From: an uncultured Mucilaginibacter sp.
Lineage (GTDB): Bacteria; Bacteroidota; Bacteroidia; Sphingobacteriales; Sphingobacteriaceae
DNA length: 64,000 bases
Reading direction: 5' to 3'
Assembly (NCBI RefSeq): GCF_913773635.1
Contig: NZ_CAJYGQ010000010.1
Location: forward strand, 186,001 to 250,000
The translations under genes and the position numbers were made by a program. Under the pieces are notes generated by a model. It saw nothing but the letters and a program-made list of their open reading frames with translations, was not told the DNA's origin and searched no databases. This document shows, in pieces, positions 19,847 to 28,684 of the stretch; positions within the stretch are counted from its first letter, which is position 1; every line of letters begins with the position of its first letter.

Positions 19847-21709
19847 TTATTGTTCGTCAACGCTCTTACCCTTCATAGCCGTTGCAATTGCTTGATCCAT
19901 CACGCGTTCGGCGTAAGGGCGGGTAAGTTCATTGAGCTCGTCAATTTTTTTGTGGATGAGGTCTTTGTCGCCGCTGGTAAGTGCAGCTTTCAAAGCCTGA
20001 ACGTATTGGTGTGTACTACTAACTTCAGCAACACTTAGTAGTGCGCCATGCTTTTCTATAAAGCGTTCAGTAGTATAAACCATTTGTTCACCTTCGGTGC
20101 GCGCTTCAATCAGCATACGTTGAGCCACATCGTCTTTTGCATGCGTAATGCTGTCCATAAGCATTTGTTCAACCTGGTCATCGGTAATACCGTAAGCCGG
20201 CTTTACGTCAACTTCCTGTTTAGTTCCGGAGCGTAACTCAATGGCTTGCACTTTCAATATGCCATCGGCATTAAGTAAAAAGTTAATGTCAACCTTAGGG
20301 AAACCTGCAGGCATAGCAGGTATGCCCTTCAAATCAAACTCCGCCAGTTTGCGGTTTTCTTTAACCAAATCACGCTCGCCCTGGTAAACCGAAATTTTCA
20401 TATTCACCTGGCCATCTACAGAGGTAGTGTACTGCCTGCCTGCTTTGGTGGGCACCTTTGAATTACGCGGAATAATTACGTCCATTAATCCGCCCATAGT
20501 TTCAATGCCCAATGATAGAGGGGTTACATCAAGCAGTAAAATGTCTTTACGGTTACCGGCCAAAATGTCGGCTTGTATTGACGCTCCAAGGGCAACCACT
20601 TCATCAGGATTCACATCGTCATGCGGTGTTTTTCCAAAGTAATCACCAACTCGGCGTTTAACTAAAGCGGTGCGGGTAGATCCGCCAACCATAATAACCT
20701 CGTCAATATCTTTGATGGTTAAGCCTGCATCTGTAAGTGCATTAGTACAAGCTTTAATGGTTTGCTCAACTTTGGGGGCAATCAGTTCTTCAAATGTAGT
20801 GCGGTCAAGCGTGCACCATATATCGCCAATTTTTTCATTGAAAAGACTTTGATGGGCAAACGCTTTTTTAGCTTCTTCTGCTTTCAAGCGCAGCTGCTGC
20901 ATCAACTCGCGGTTATCAGCAAGTTCTGTACGGTTCAGCTGGTTTTTTTCAATCCAGTACTCAAGTATAGCCCGGTCAAAATCATCTCCGCCTAAAAAGG
21001 TGTCGCCGTTGGTAGCTAACACCTCAAATATGCCGTTTTGTATTTGCAGTATTGACACGTCAAATGTGCCGCCACCTAAATCATATACTGCAATGGTTTT
21101 AGTTTCGTCGGCCTTAAGGCCTATACCGTAGGCTAAACTAGCAGCAGTAGGCTCGTTTACAATGCGTAAAACGTCTAATCCGGCAAGCTTCCCGGCATCG
21201 CGTGTGGCCTGGCGTTGCGAGTCATTGAAGTAAGCCGGAACTGTTATTACCGCGCGGTTCACCGGTGTTTTAAGTGCATGTTCTGCACGTTCTTTTAGTT
21301 CCTTTAATATTAAGCCAGATAGCTCAATGGGTGTGTAAAAGCGATCGCCCACTTTAACTTTAACAAGGCTTTCGGTGTTATCATCAATTACTTTGTATGA
21401 AAAGAAGTCTTTGTAATTTTCAATATCGCCATAAGAACGACCCAGCAATCGTTTAACCGAAAATATAGTGTTTTGCGGGTCGGTCACTAGGTGATTTTTG
21501 GCCTCGTTACCTACAGTGATAGTGCCTGTTTTATCAAAATGCACAACCGAAGGTACTAATACGCCCTTGCCTGCATCATTAATAACCTGCGGGTTTTTGT
21601 CAGGGTTGATAAATGCTACCAGCGAGTTGGTGGTACCTAAATCAATTCCTACAATAATTTCTTCCTTTTGCAATGAACCCGTTGCCAGGTTGATGGAAAC
21701 TTTAGCCAT
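19847..21709 (-). CDS. hscA: Fe-S cluster assembly chaperone HscA (Hsp70 family)
   Basis: A 620-residue Hsp70-type ATPase that delivers the IscU-bound cluster to apoproteins. It has IVGIDLGTTNSLVAF near residue 20, AVYDLGGGTFDVSI near 205, MVGGSTRTALV near 345, and a complete substrate-binding domain (LLDVTPLSLGIETMGG). It is shorter than typical DnaK, lacks the long charged C-terminal tail, and has the HscA-like N-terminus MAKVSINLATGSLQKE. ISC ferredoxin and IscX lie about 28 kb away in this window, so the isc genes are dispersed. DnaK is the main alternative. Confidence 0.85.
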   Translation of the reverse strand: MAKVSINLATGSLQKEEIIVGIDLGTTNSLVAFINPDKNPQVINDAGKGVLVPSVVHFDKTGTITVGNEAKNHLVTDPQNTIFSVKRLLGRSYGDIENYKDFFSYKVIDDNTESLVKVKVGDRFYTPIELSGLILKELKERAEHALKTPVNRAVITVPAYFNDSQRQATRDAGKLAGLDVLRIVNEPTAASLAYGIGLKADETKTIAVYDLGGGTFDVSILQIQNGIFEVLATNGDTFLGGDDFDRAILEYWIEKNQLNRTELADNRELMQQLRLKAEEAKKAFAHQSLFNEKIGDIWCTLDRTTFEELIAPKVEQTIKACTNALTDAGLTIKDIDEVIMVGGSTRTALVKRRVGDYFGKTPHDDVNPDEVVALGASIQADILAGNRKDILLLDVTPLSLGIETMGGLMDVIIPRNSKVPTKAGRQYTTSVDGQVNMKISVYQGERDLVKENRKLAEFDLKGIPAMPAGFPKVDINFLLNADGILKVQAIELRSGTKQEVDVKPAYGITDDQVEQMLMDSITHAKDDVAQRMLIEARTEGEQMVYTTERFIEKHGALLSVAEVSSTHQYVQALKAALTSGDKDLIHKKIDELNELTRPYAERVMDQAIATAMKGKSVDEQ

Positions 21710-21905: not shown

Positions 21906-24740
21906 ATGATTAAGGCTAAGTTTTGTAGTGCAGCTATAGCAGCATTGATTTTGATGGCGTTAGGAGCAAATGCACAGCAATTTGGTGGCAATCCGCCGTC
22001 ACTCAAATGGAATCAGCTTAATGATTCGGCGGCCAGGGTAATATATCCGCTGGGCATGGATTCAATTGCAAGGCGGTTAGCAGGCATAATTGATCATGTT
22101 AAAAACAGTACCCAACCAACCATAGGCTTAAAGCAGCGTAAAGTAAATATTGTATTGCAAAACCAGCTGATTACTACTAACGGTTACGTTGGTTTGGCAC
22201 CGTTCAGAAGCGAATTTTACCTTGTACCGGCCCAAAACAGTTTTTCGTTAGGGAGTTTACCGGTGGGCGATCAGCTGGCTATACATGAATTCAGGCACGT
22301 TCAGCAATTCAATAATTCTAATGTAGGGTTAACTGCTTTTTTAAAAGCTGTTTTTGGAGAAGGCGGGCAGGCCTTGGCATACGGTATTGCCGTACCAAAC
22401 TGGTTTGCCGAGGGCGATGCCGTTTATAATGAAACCTACTTAACCAACCAGGGACGGGGCCGCCTACCTTACTTTTTTAATGGATACCGAAGTTTATGGG
22501 CCGCCGGAAAAGACTACAGCTGGATGAAGCTTCGCAATGGGTCATACAGAGACTTTGTACCCGACTGGTATCCGCTAGGGTATATGATGATAGCTTACGG
22601 AAGATATACTTACGGTGATGATGTTTGGCGGAAAATCCACAGAGATGCAGCAGCTTACCATACACTTGTTTATCCTTTTCAAGGCGCGTTAAAACGTTAC
22701 ACAGGCAAAAATTACGCTGACTATCGCACGGTAGCGCTTGATTATTTCAAACAGCAGCTCGTAAGTCCCGAATTGCAAAAAGGCACCTTGAAATACAAAA
22801 GCAATCAGCATTTTATTGGCAGTGAGGAGTTCCCAAACTATGTAAATGACAGCACCATTATTTACAGAAAATCGTCGTACAAGCAACGTGCAACGTTTGT
22901 TGAAAGGAAAGGCAACCAGGAAAGAAAAATACGGCTATCAGACTTTACCGTTGATGGTTACTTTACTTATAACAACGGGAAAATCATTTATGCATCGCGT
23001 CGTCCTGACCCGCGCTGGACTTACCGTGAATATAATGAGCTTAAGATAGTTGACGTGGTAACAGGCCATCAGCAAAGTATTACCCGTAAAACCAAGTATT
23101 TTGCGCCAGCGTTTAACGCCGACAACAGTCGTATTGTTGCGGTTGATGTGCAGCCATCAGGAAAGTACGCCTTACATATATTAAATGCTGCCGATGGCGT
23201 TTTACTTAAAGAGGTTCCTAATCCTAATGGGGTATTTTATACCTATCCCAGGTTTTATTCTGAAACTGCAATTGTTGCGGCTATCCGCAAAACATCGGGC
23301 AATATGAGTATTGCGTTAGTTGACGTTGGAAGTGGAAAGTTAACTGAACTCACACCTGAAGACATAGCACCCAAAGCATTTCCTGTTGTACAGCGCGATA
23401 CTATTTACTTCACAGGCACATCCGGTATCAACGACAAGCTGTTTGCCGTCAGCATACCCGACCGTAAAGTGTATGAACTGCAAGGCGACTCGTTGAGTAA
23501 TTACATCGGCAACTATCAGCCCGCTGTAAGCTCTAATAGAGTAGGGTGGGTAAGCTTTAGCGCGTTTGGTTATCAAATACACCAGACAGAAAGGAAAAAT
23601 CTTCGCTTTAAACCATTTGTTAGAACTTCGCAGTTGCCTGATTTCAATATTTCATCATTAAAAAATGAACCGGCCAGTAACTTAATTGCATCGGCGGCTC
23701 CAGCTGCCACATCTGCCAAAAAGTATTCAAAACTTACTCATCCGTTTAACTTCCATAGTCTGATTCCTAGTATTGATGACCCTGATTACAGTATATCTTT
23801 AATGGGCGAAAACATTTTGAATACCCTGCAAACTGAGCTTTCCTTTGGTTATAACCGTAATGAAGGGTATAAACAATTAAGTTTTAATACTACTTATGGC
23901 GCCTTTTTCCCTTACCTGTTTGGCAGGGTTGATTACACGCTAGACCGGCGCGACTACGGCTTTGATGCCAACCGCAATGTAGTTGAAGTAAACTGGAACG
24001 AAACGAGGTTGCAAACCGGTATTCAGGTGCCGCTACTTTTTGCCGGTGGCAAAAACTATACGCGCCTTACCTTCACAAGCAGCGTTAATCTAAGTATGAA
24101 TAATGTAAGGCAACAGGCTTTCAAAGGTTCGCTTCCTAATTACACTTACATAAATAATTCGTTTACATTCAACAATCAAATTGCAAAGCCATACCAGCTT
24201 ATCAATCCGCGGCTTGCGCAAAGCGTAACGCTAAGCTATCGCAATACAATAAACAGCTTAAATGCGCACCAATGGTTGGCATCCGGTACTTTCTATTTTC
24301 CGGGTATATTAGCTACGCATAGTATTGTAATCAATGCAGCTCATCAGCGTCGGGATAGGGCTTATAGCTTTTTCTCTAATCAGTTGCCGTTTTCGCGCGG
24401 TTATACAGCTGATAATTTATACCGCTTATACAAAGCCGGAATAAGTTATCATTTTCCCGTAGCATACCCTGATGCCGGCTTTGGCAATTTATTATACGTT
24501 ATGCGCCTGCGCGGAAGTATTTTTTACGACTACACCCGTGGTACGGATTTCTATCGAAACGGCACAACGTTTAAGGCAAATTTCAGATCGGCAGGAGCGG
24601 AGTTGTATTTTGATACCCAATGGTTTAATCAAAGCTCCATAACATTTGGGCTGCGCTATACGCGTTTGATGGATGAAGATTTATTTGGAGGAAACGGGCG
24701 TAACAGGCTAAGCCTCATACTGCCCCTGAGTATCTTTTAG
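21906..24740 (+). CDS. Outer-membrane protein fusing HExxH peptidase, beta-propeller and C-terminal barrel
   Basis: A 944-residue exported protein (signal peptide 1-23, GANA|QQ). The N-terminal region (about 35-290) carries IHEFRHVQQF, an HExxH zinc motif at His127-Glu128-His131, and WFAEGDAVYNE with Glu169 as the likely third ligand. This is the gluzincin pattern of MA-type peptidases. Residues of about 290-590 hold TolB/WD40-like propeller blades (IIYASRRPDPRWTYREY and similar). After a low-complexity Ala/Pro linker, about 625-944 alternates like a transmembrane beta-barrel and ends LILPLSIF with a terminal Phe. It is probably a surface or periplasm-facing protease anchored by its own barrel. 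The substrate is unknown. Its 3' end overlaps the convergent cutC by 33 bp. Confidence 0.75.
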   Translation: MIKAKFCSAAIAALILMALGANAQQFGGNPPSLKWNQLNDSAARVIYPLGMDSIARRLAGIIDHVKNSTQPTIGLKQRKVNIVLQNQLITTNGYVGLAPFRSEFYLVPAQNSFSLGSLPVGDQLAIHEFRHVQQFNNSNVGLTAFLKAVFGEGGQALAYGIAVPNWFAEGDAVYNETYLTNQGRGRLPYFFNGYRSLWAAGKDYSWMKLRNGSYRDFVPDWYPLGYMMIAYGRYTYGDDVWRKIHRDAAAYHTLVYPFQGALKRYTGKNYADYRTVALDYFKQQLVSPELQKGTLKYKSNQHFIGSEEFPNYVNDSTIIYRKSSYKQRATFVERKGNQERKIRLSDFTVDGYFTYNNGKIIYASRRPDPRWTYREYNELKIVDVVTGHQQSITRKTKYFAPAFNADNSRIVAVDVQPSGKYALHILNAADGVLLKEVPNPNGVFYTYPRFYSETAIVAAIRKTSGNMSIALVDVGSGKLTELTPEDIAPKAFPVVQRDTIYFTGTSGINDKLFAVSIPDRKVYELQGDSLSNYIGNYQPAVSSNRVGWVSFSAFGYQIHQTERKNLRFKPFVRTSQLPDFNISSLKNEPASNLIASAAPAATSAKKYSKLTHPFNFHSLIPSIDDPDYSISLMGENILNTLQTELSFGYNRNEGYKQLSFNTTYGAFFPYLFGRVDYTLDRRDYGFDANRNVVEVNWNETRLQTGIQVPLLFAGGKNYTRLTFTSSVNLSMNNVRQQAFKGSLPNYTYINNSFTFNNQIAKPYQLINPRLAQSVTLSYRNTINSLNAHQWLASGTFYFPGILATHSIVINAAHQRRDRAYSFFSNQLPFSRGYTADNLYRLYKAGISYHFPVAYPDAGFGNLLYVMRLRGSIFYDYTRGTDFYRNGTTFKANFRSAGAELYFDTQWFNQSSITFGLRYTRLMDEDLFGGNGRNRLSLILPLSIF

Positions 24741-25496
24741 CAAGGGGTAGGGCTCGTTAGCCTTTTCAATTATACTGCGCACGCGGCCTGCATCGGTTTC
24801 GTCTATATCATAATCTTTACCTACGCTACGTCCTAACAATATGTTTTCGTTCATGTAAAGCATGCCCGTTTTACGAATTTTGCGTGCCGATGAATGTATC
24901 TCTGTAGCACCGGTAAAATGCACCAGGTCATTTACGTTATATTCGCTCACACCGCCGCCGGGCATTACGCATATACGCCCGTTTGCTTTTTGTATGAGTT
25001 GAGCAATTTTGCTGGCGCCTTCAATTGCAGTGGTTTTACTGCCTGAGGTAAGTATACAATCATACCCCATTTCAATAATTTCTTCCAATGCCTGAAACAT
25101 ATCTGCACAAAGATCAAAAGCGCGGTGAAAGGTAGCTTTCATGCCTGCATCTTTTGCCATTTTTACCAGCTCCTTACACCTTACTTTATCAATAGTTCCG
25201 TTTGGGTGCAGCATGCCGGTTACTATGGCATGCGCGCCTAGCTCTGCAGCCATCTTTAAGTTTTCTTTCATTACTTCATACTCTGCGTCAGAGTATAAAA
25301 AATCGCCGGTACGGGGCCTAAGCAGTACATGTACAGGTATATTGATTTTATTTAAAGTAACTTTTATTTGTCCGTACGATGGCGTTGTGCCGCCTTCATG
25401 AAGGTTGTCACATAATTCAATACGTGTGGCGCCGCCCTTTTCAGCAGCAATTGCCGATTCTACAGAGTTAGCGCAAACCTCAAGAGCAATATTCAT
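24708..25496 (-). CDS. cutC: CutC family protein
   Basis: A 262-residue TIM-barrel protein of the CutC family. It shows LEVCANSVESAIAAEKGGA at the N-terminus, RIELCDNLHEGGTTPSYG, the LLRPRTGDFLYSD loop, FHRAFD near 135 and the C-terminal GATEIHSSARK. CutC has been linked to copper homeostasis, but its biochemical role is disputed. Its C-terminal codons overlap the end of the convergent peptidase-propeller gene by 33 bp, so the two transcripts run into each other. Confidence 0.93.
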   Translation of the reverse strand: MNIALEVCANSVESAIAAEKGGATRIELCDNLHEGGTTPSYGQIKVTLNKINIPVHVLLRPRTGDFLYSDAEYEVMKENLKMAAELGAHAIVTGMLHPNGTIDKVRCKELVKMAKDAGMKATFHRAFDLCADMFQALEEIIEMGYDCILTSGSKTTAIEGASKIAQLIQKANGRICVMPGGGVSEYNVNDLVHFTGATEIHSSARKIRKTGMLYMNENILLGRSVGKDYDIDETDAGRVRSIIEKANEPYPLLKDTQGQYEA

Positions 25497-28157: not shown

Positions 28158-28684
28158 ATGAAAAACAAACTTATTTTAGTTATGATGCTTGCGCTAAGTG
28201 TTTTCACATTTTCGGCATGCTCAGATGATGACGATGATGATGCAATGAAAATGCAGAACCAGATTTTTGTAAATGAAGCAGCAAGCGGCAACATGCTCGA
28301 AATTCAGGCTGGTGCTATGGCCGAGCAGAAAGGTGTAAGCCAGCAGGTAAAAGATTACGGTCATCACATGGTTACTGACCATACTACCGCAAGTACTCAG
28401 TTAACCACCTTGGCTAATAATGAAGGTTTTACCGTACCAACGCAATTGCTTGAAAAACATCAAACAAAATTAATGCTTTAATGCCATTAACCGGTGTAGC
28501 GTTTGATAAGGCCTTTGCCACTTTAATGGTACAATCGCACGAGGAGCAGGTGAACTTATTTGAACAAGCTTCAAACAACGTTGAAGATGACGATCTGAAA
28601 GATTTTGCGCGCGAAAAACTGCCGACTTTGAAAGCTCACTTAGAAGAGGCACGCCAACTGAATACAACCGTAAACGCACAATAA
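28158..28684 (+). pseudogene. DUF4142 surface lipoprotein gene split by a one-base frameshift
   Basis: The first frame (28158-28481, 107 codons) encodes a lipoprotein signal ending FSAC, then SDDDDDD and the N-terminal half of a DUF4142 (ferritin-like four-helix) domain. It stops at TAA, 28479-28481. The rest of the domain continues in the -1 frame from about 28472 (reading NALMPLTGVAFDKAF) to 28684. Adding one A in TTAATG near 28472 restores a 175-residue protein of normal family length. The second frame has an ATG at 28481 overlapping the stop (TAATG). The poly-Asp after the cysteine fits the Bacteroidota surface-lipoprotein export signal. Sequencing error, recent pseudogene or two coupled halves are all possible. 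Confidence 0.8.

Follow-up and report, generated by a model that had tools for sequence, protein, structure and literature searches.

A predicted zinc peptidase, a TolB-like propeller and an Omp85-type barrel joined in one protein chain of Bacteroidota

A gene in a 64,000-nucleotide stretch of DNA from an uncultured Mucilaginibacter sp. (contig NZ_CAJYGQ010000010.1, positions 186,001 to 250,000; the whole stretch is called the window here) encodes a protein in which a putative zinc peptidase, a TolB-like beta-propeller and an Omp85-type outer-membrane barrel follow one another in a single chain. Computation supports the order of these three parts and the folds of the barrel and the propeller; it likewise supports a conserved active site and a phylum-wide spread of the fused protein. 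An initial annotation, made from the letters alone, had read such a polypeptide at 21906-24740, and the open reading frame (ORF) listing and the translation confirm both these boundaries and the length of 944 residues. The three-part anatomy is likewise supported, because structure prediction returned a C-terminal barrel and the HExxH residues were kept among homologues. Beyond the anatomy, the earlier interpretation shifts: the barrel can be given a name (Omp85/BamA), the family is spread over the phylum, and the description of the protein as a new type of outer-membrane machine holds only in part. With moderate confidence, we read the protein as a protease anchored in the outer membrane by its Omp85 barrel, with propeller and peptidase in the periplasm, that cuts envelope proteins. 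The features on which the argument draws are as follows.

21906..24740, plus strand: the whole gene, encoding the 944-residue peptidase-propeller-Omp85-type barrel protein (ORF listing, translation, AlphaFold2 model).
21906..21974, plus strand: putative Sec/SPI signal peptide, residues 1-23 (a hydrophobic stretch ending in ANA before Gln24, the presumed cleavage site).
21975..22805, plus strand: predicted gluzincin-type zinc-peptidase domain, residues 24-300 (domain model, fold matches, weak profile match).
22284..22298, plus strand: putative zinc-binding and catalytic motif HEFRH, residues 127-131, on helix 120-136 (conservation, model helix).
22410..22412, plus strand: Glu169, presumed third zinc ligand, on helix 165-179 (conservation, model helix).
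22569..22571, plus strand: Tyr222, candidate transition-state tyrosine (conservation, weak alignment with collagenase G).
22821..23615, plus strand: TolB-like beta-propeller, read as six blades, residues 306-570 (24 modelled strands, TolB fold and model matches).
23616..23717, plus strand: linker from propeller to barrel, residues 571-604 (only two 4-residue helices in the model).
23751..24719, plus strand: 16-stranded Omp85/BamA-type outer-membrane barrel, residues 616-938 (strand count, fold matches, phylum-wide profile match).
24354..24422, plus strand: long loop between strands 11 and 12, residues 817-839, at the position of Omp85 loop L6 (model; RGY 831-833 at 24396-24404).
24528..24530, plus strand: Asp875 on strand 13, candidate partner of Arg831 (conservation; the pairing is presumed from the Omp85 pattern).

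The gene runs in a single frame from an ATG start to a TAG stop. A full-length AlphaFold2 model, built with a 65-sequence alignment as input, reached a mean predicted local distance difference test (pLDDT) of 88 and a predicted template modelling score (pTM) of 0.87. Along the modelled chain, a mostly helical domain extends to about residue 300 and is followed by the propeller, the linker and the barrel. Gln24 is invariant across the 65-sequence alignment and is probably the mature N-terminus. This agrees with the Bacteroidetes Q-rule of an exposed N-terminal Gln (PMC5837995). The gene is the sole full-length copy found in its genome, where a profile search gave a second match limited to the propeller. 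Its nearest named relative, from Mucilaginibacter aquatilis, is 92% identical, and further relatives include named strains of Mucilaginibacter and Chitinophaga.

Conservation carries the peptidase assignment. The translation contains the proposed zinc site as His127-Glu-Phe-Arg-His131, with Glu169 in WFAEGDA downstream. Among 20,000 shuffles of the protein, HExxH arose in 0.66%, and HExxH with W..EG no more than 80 residues downstream arose in none. Homologues were compared in two alignments: a near set of the window protein and 109 relatives (110 sequences, with gaps excluded and some columns therefore holding fewer), and a divergent set of 41 phylum-wide members, comprising the window protein and 40 distant relatives chosen for spread, with 15-25% identity to it. 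The survey of homologues that had been suggested as a check found the motif in every sequence with letters there: His127, Glu128 and His131 are each present in 109/109 of the near set, Glu169 and Tyr222 in 110/110, and all five in 41/41 of the divergent set. The only columns invariant throughout the divergent set (41/41) are N92, H127, E128, H131, P164, E169, G170, A172, Y222 and G225. Propeller proteins are often scaffolds, which speaks for a reading in which the peptidase domain binds zinc in a mainly structural or regulatory role and the whole protein serves as an envelope scaffold. That five catalytic-type residues stay invariant in 41 members at such low identity argues instead for catalysis under selection, and we regard the scaffold as very unlikely.

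The predicted fold points the same way. An isolated model of residues 26-302 (pLDDT 84.7) has its nearest folds in M9 collagenase (Z 12.6 over 210 residues, root-mean-square deviation (rmsd) 3.4), M30 lugdulysin (Z 12.5) and M1 aminopeptidases and LTA4 hydrolase (up to Z 11.9). All 50 fold matches listed are gluzincin-type by title (M9, M30, M1, LTA4 hydrolase). Both marks of a gluzincin of clan MA(E), the HExxH with a downstream Glu ligand and the gluzincin fold, are thus present, the first in the sequence and the second in the predicted model. A weak profile match to the M9 collagenase ColG (E 0.037) aligns Tyr222 with a Tyr of collagenase G, which we take to be Tyr607, counting from the zinc ligand His523, and presumably the transition-state residue. 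Among the divergent members, Pfam Peptidase_M9 was seen in one of 41 (locus L183; E 0.003, below cut-off), and the M30 and M1 folds lie within 1 Z unit of M9; Peptidase_MA_2 was seen in four of the 41, below cut-off in the matches listed.

The collagenases among the nearest folds are also a point for type V-like secretion, since collagenases are secreted; in that reading the barrel would pass both N-terminal domains to the cell surface, and external protein would be what the peptidase digests. Some 570 N-terminal residues, mostly in folded domains, precede barrel strand 1 and speak against such a passage. Secretion was the earlier model for the patatin-Omp85 protein PlpD, whose enzymatic (patatin-like) domain was found in the periplasm only, according to the accessible text of PMC11116518. 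On balance we consider secretion an unlikely function.

The propeller-like repeats noted at first are confirmed. The model has 24 strands in residues 306-570, which we read as six blades of four, and residues 315-567 match TolB (3iax) with Z 22.1 over 235 residues and rmsd 2.6. The NCBIfam TolB model matches the window protein at E 1.1e-5 and was seen in 40/41 divergent members, while TolB structures were found at E 1e-17 with the family profile. The predicted model therefore has the TolB propeller fold, and the window protein scores 24.5 bits against a TolB equivalog cut-off of 343.15, which it does not reach. The linker that follows had been described as low-complexity; a linker is present, although its complexity is reduced only mildly.

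For the C-terminal part, a transmembrane barrel had been suggested from residue pattern and without a named family. Structure prediction returned a barrel of 16 strands of at least six residues between 616 and 938, plus two 3-residue strands at 605-607 and 857-859. For residues 615-941, BamA of Deinococcus (8xnb) gives Z 21.2 over 302 residues and rmsd 4.0 (VIA-align). Further matches are BamA of Flavobacterium johnsoniae (9n2f, Z 20.5), E. coli BamA (Z about 20), FhaC (Z 19.4), TamA (Z 19.1) and the yeast SAM complex (Z 19.1); taken together, the BamA, FhaC, TamA and SAM complex matches span Z 18.7-21.2 over 275-304 residues. These proteins represent separate branches of a single superfamily, and the order of the matched barrel ranges is the same throughout; on these grounds we place the barrel in the Omp85 fold. 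The predicted model thus has the 16-stranded barrel of the Omp85 superfamily, and the match to BamA suggests that it is closed. The suggested barrel is upheld and can now be named, by fold and by the phylum-wide profile described below. The terminal Phe that had been read as part of the pattern is not fixed in the family: the last position of the 110 sequences holds F in 41, L in 27, I in 22, a gap in 18, V in 1 and S in 1.

Loop L6 of Omp85 proteins bears a VRGF/Y-type motif. In the window protein, the loop that joins strands 11 and 12 contains RGY at 831-833, and in the near set Gly832 is kept in 108/108 and Arg831 in 93/108 sequences with letters. Position 875 is Asp in 103/107; its pairing with Arg831 is presumed, following the Omp85 pattern.

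Sequence comparison supports the same assignment when the whole phylum is sampled. The Omp85 reference set held 28 of 30 loci, the other two having frames too short, and the control sets held TonB receptors (30/30 loci), FadL-type proteins (29/29) and PorP/SprF (29/30), the last two by the frame covering the locus middle. Profiles of near relatives gave no significant match to Omp85, so the 40 distant phylum relatives were added, and only the phylum-wide profile decided for Omp85. This 41-member barrel profile aligned with the 28 Omp85 barrels at P 2.8e-7 over 286 columns in hhalign (2.7e-7 on repeat), and a 59-sequence profile of near and distant barrels gave P 9.2e-7. Controls for the 41-member profile were negative: P was 0.32 with a reversed Omp85 profile, 0.1 for the best of 15 column shuffles, 0.12 with TonB receptors, 0.15 with FadL-type proteins and 0.29 with PorP/SprF. 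Sequence homology to Omp85 barrels is therefore found with the phylum-wide set and not with near relatives alone. The relative L183 narrowly exceeds the Pfam Omp85 (PF01103) cut-off (24.2 against 24 bits, residues 747-956) and has its weak Peptidase_M9 match in the same chain at residues 133-251. The NCBIfam BamA model was seen in one of the 41 divergent members (E 0.0055). A Pfam search of 19 near barrels, with E values as high as 10 allowed, brought up no barrel family; its only match, weak and in a single barrel, was to outer-membrane efflux (OEP) proteins. The barrel profile found nothing in the PDB. As a separate observation, genome G000 holds six Pfam Omp85 matches, among them C4:35994-36572 and C7:72336-73019, in frames of 962 and 868 amino acids.

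No POTRA domain was found, either in the model, where the propeller leads through a short linker to the barrel, or among the Pfam matches of 19 near and 41 divergent members. The protein is therefore not of the POTRA-bearing Omp85 type (BamA, TamA, FhaC), which has at least one POTRA before the barrel. This bears on a further alternative, a BamA/TamA-like insertase or assembly factor with a built-in protease checkpoint, which would fold or survey outer-membrane proteins at the barrel seam and degrade failures. In its favour are a barrel fold nearest to BamA and the TolB-like propeller, since BamB, a partner of BamA, belongs to the same class of folds (PMC4104836). Against it stand the missing POTRA and the family's patchy occurrence: among the genomes listed for the window's class, several gave no match in the single-protein and peptidase-profile searches, so the protein does not belong to the core assembly machinery. 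The subunits of the F. johnsoniae BAM complex, compared by description only, are not described with such a make-up in the accessible text of PMC12611786, where BamP and BamM are called 'periplasmic' and 'metal ion-containing'. We therefore think an insertase improbable.

The fused form is widespread. A single-protein search found relatives in 119/395 phylum genomes, with some far matches covering the propeller only, and the peptidase-domain profile matched in 107/198 phylum genomes. The peptidase-domain matches listed all lie within open frames of 706-1282 amino acids, and the domain never stands alone among them; at 21 phylum-spread loci the gene frame has 782-1147 residues, the shortest reflecting start-codon choice. 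Given these frame lengths and the near-constant presence of the TolB model in the divergent set, peptidase, propeller and barrel appear, from sequence, to travel together as a phylum-wide family. Outside the window's class there is a second, longer branch with frames of about 1030-1180 amino acids and the same HExxH; its members L174 and L185 have a longer insert between HExxH and the downstream Trp/Glu part.

Several results weigh against this picture. For the peptidase, Z 12.6 falls within the range (below about 13) flagged as possibly uninformative for helical domains, and Foldseek gave E 1.1e-3 at best, with a chain of the TFIID complex, a transcription factor, in its fifth row. With Foldseek values this modest and Z under about 13, sequence conservation weighs more than the fold match. 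For the barrel, near-relative profiles did not match Omp85 significantly in hhalign (P 0.049 and 0.087) and scored better with TonB receptors (P 0.0051 and 0.0009; 0.0022 and 0.00078 on repeat), while Pfam Omp85 matched none of 19 near relatives and one of 41 divergent members. The RGY motif is weaker across the phylum, with Arg in 20/41 and Gly in 36/41 of the divergent set, and position 875 is acidic in 23/41 (Asp 10, Glu 13). The count of 107/198 genomes refers to peptidase-domain matches, with propeller and barrel checked one by one in a minority. Pfam assigned no family to the window protein alone. Other searches were equally silent: PHROGs and a tblastn search of a plasmid collection gave no match to the protein, Rfam gave nothing over the window at the gathering threshold, and a PDB search with the single protein gave one match, which was irrelevant.

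Taking the parts together, we return to the outer-membrane-anchored protease as the preferred reading. A TolB-type propeller, preceded by a gluzincin zinc peptidase, would replace the POTRA domains on a 16-stranded Omp85-type barrel. The chain would be exported by Sec and the barrel would insert into the outer membrane, leaving propeller and peptidase in the periplasm just beneath it. Two points suggest this placement: the periplasm is the side from which the chain runs into an Omp85 barrel, and the patatin domain of PlpD was found there as well (PMC11116518). Envelope proteins that reach the inner face of the outer membrane would be cut by the peptidase, and the propeller would act as adaptor or gate; our guess at the likeliest substrates is outer-membrane proteins that have stalled or misfolded, or else exported precursors. 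A bolder version, to which we give little weight, is a phylum-wide quality-control machine in which the Omp85 barrel engages clients at its seam and the propeller feeds failed clients to the built-in zinc protease. If true, it would place the tasks of BamA, of a BamB/TolB-like partner and of a protease in one chain, the third being that of a BepA-like protease.

Gene names in the neighbourhood are tentative readings of the sequence, and counts over the 80 near loci are lower bounds, many contigs being short. We take the neighbours to be a convergent valyl-tRNA-synthetase-like gene (at least 33/80), an upstream DnaK-like gene (at least 19/80), a CutC-like gene (at least 16/80) and an asparaginase-like gene (at least 16/80); an antisense frame inside the gene itself (18/80 near loci) was left out of the ranking. 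Over the 21 phylum-spread loci, the most shared neighbour is an ABC-ATPase-like group at only 5/21, so the gene has no fixed partner, and an operon partner was rejected as a candidate. The flanking genes in the window are as follows.

19847-21709, minus strand: presumably a DnaK/HscA-like chaperone gene, divergent and adjoining the gene under study.
24708-25496, minus strand: presumably a CutC-like gene, tail to tail with the gene under study and overlapping its end by 33 bases.

Further along, at 28158-28481 and beyond, a small lipoprotein-like gene, which we take to be DUF4142-like, stops at residue 107, and a similar continuation is open in another frame downstream; the gene looks broken by a frameshift.

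The family matters chiefly because it adds a predicted, apparently intact zinc peptidase to the Omp85 scaffold and is spread over Bacteroidota. Omp85 is the family that builds diderm outer membranes, and its members with enzymes or propellers in place of POTRAs are little characterised according to the PlpD authors (PMC11116518). Current barrel models hardly detect the family, since Pfam Omp85 and NCBIfam BamA rarely match. The gene has no constant operon partner and occurs in named strains of Mucilaginibacter and Chitinophaga, which offers a setting for the question of whether proteolysis at the outer membrane can take place on an Omp85 barrel.

Each part of the protein has known counterparts. 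With the gluzincins of M9, M30, M1 and Peptidase_MA_2 it shares the HExxH with downstream Glu and the fold matches, whereas the window protein is without any Pfam match. TolB shares the propeller fold; the window protein lies far under the TolB family cut-off, and its propeller is the middle of a longer chain. The calcineurin-like metallophosphatases, which we take PF00149 to represent, enter the comparison through one Omp85 subfamily. The accessible text of Heinz and Lithgow (2014, PMC4104836) divides Omp85/TpsB into ten subfamilies, including WD40-Omp85, likened to a BamA-BamB fusion, and 'Metallo'. The metalloprotease, WD40-like and patatin-like subfamilies are not well characterised according to the authors of the PlpD study (PMC11116518, accessible text). 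'Metallo' resembles the window protein in having an enzymatic metal domain, called a metalloprotease, before an Omp85 barrel, but the domain named in the accessible text is PF00149 (PMC4104836) and not an HExxH peptidase. PlpD likewise carries an enzyme domain on an Omp85 barrel; it is a homodimer-forming protein with a single POTRA and a patatin-like domain, whereas the window protein has a predicted peptidase and propeller and no POTRA was found. WD40-Omp85 comes closest, with a TolB-like propeller in place of POTRAs before an Omp85 barrel, the arrangement that the predicted model of the window protein shows. It differs in that no peptidase domain is described for that subfamily in the accessible text (PMC4104836), and in that its published members were gathered by conserved barrel sequence, while Pfam Omp85 is found in 0/19 of the window protein's near relatives and 1/41 divergent members; some published WD40-Omp85 proteins may carry the peptidase unnoticed. 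Among open-licence PMC papers, none was found that unites HExxH peptidase, propeller and Omp85 barrel, and the accessible parts of PMC12045153 and PMC13067283 hold nothing on this architecture. The early suggestion of a new type of outer-membrane machine thus survives for the three-part combination; it is not a wholly new type, because WD40-propeller and 'metalloprotease' Omp85 subfamilies are already in print separately (PMC4104836).

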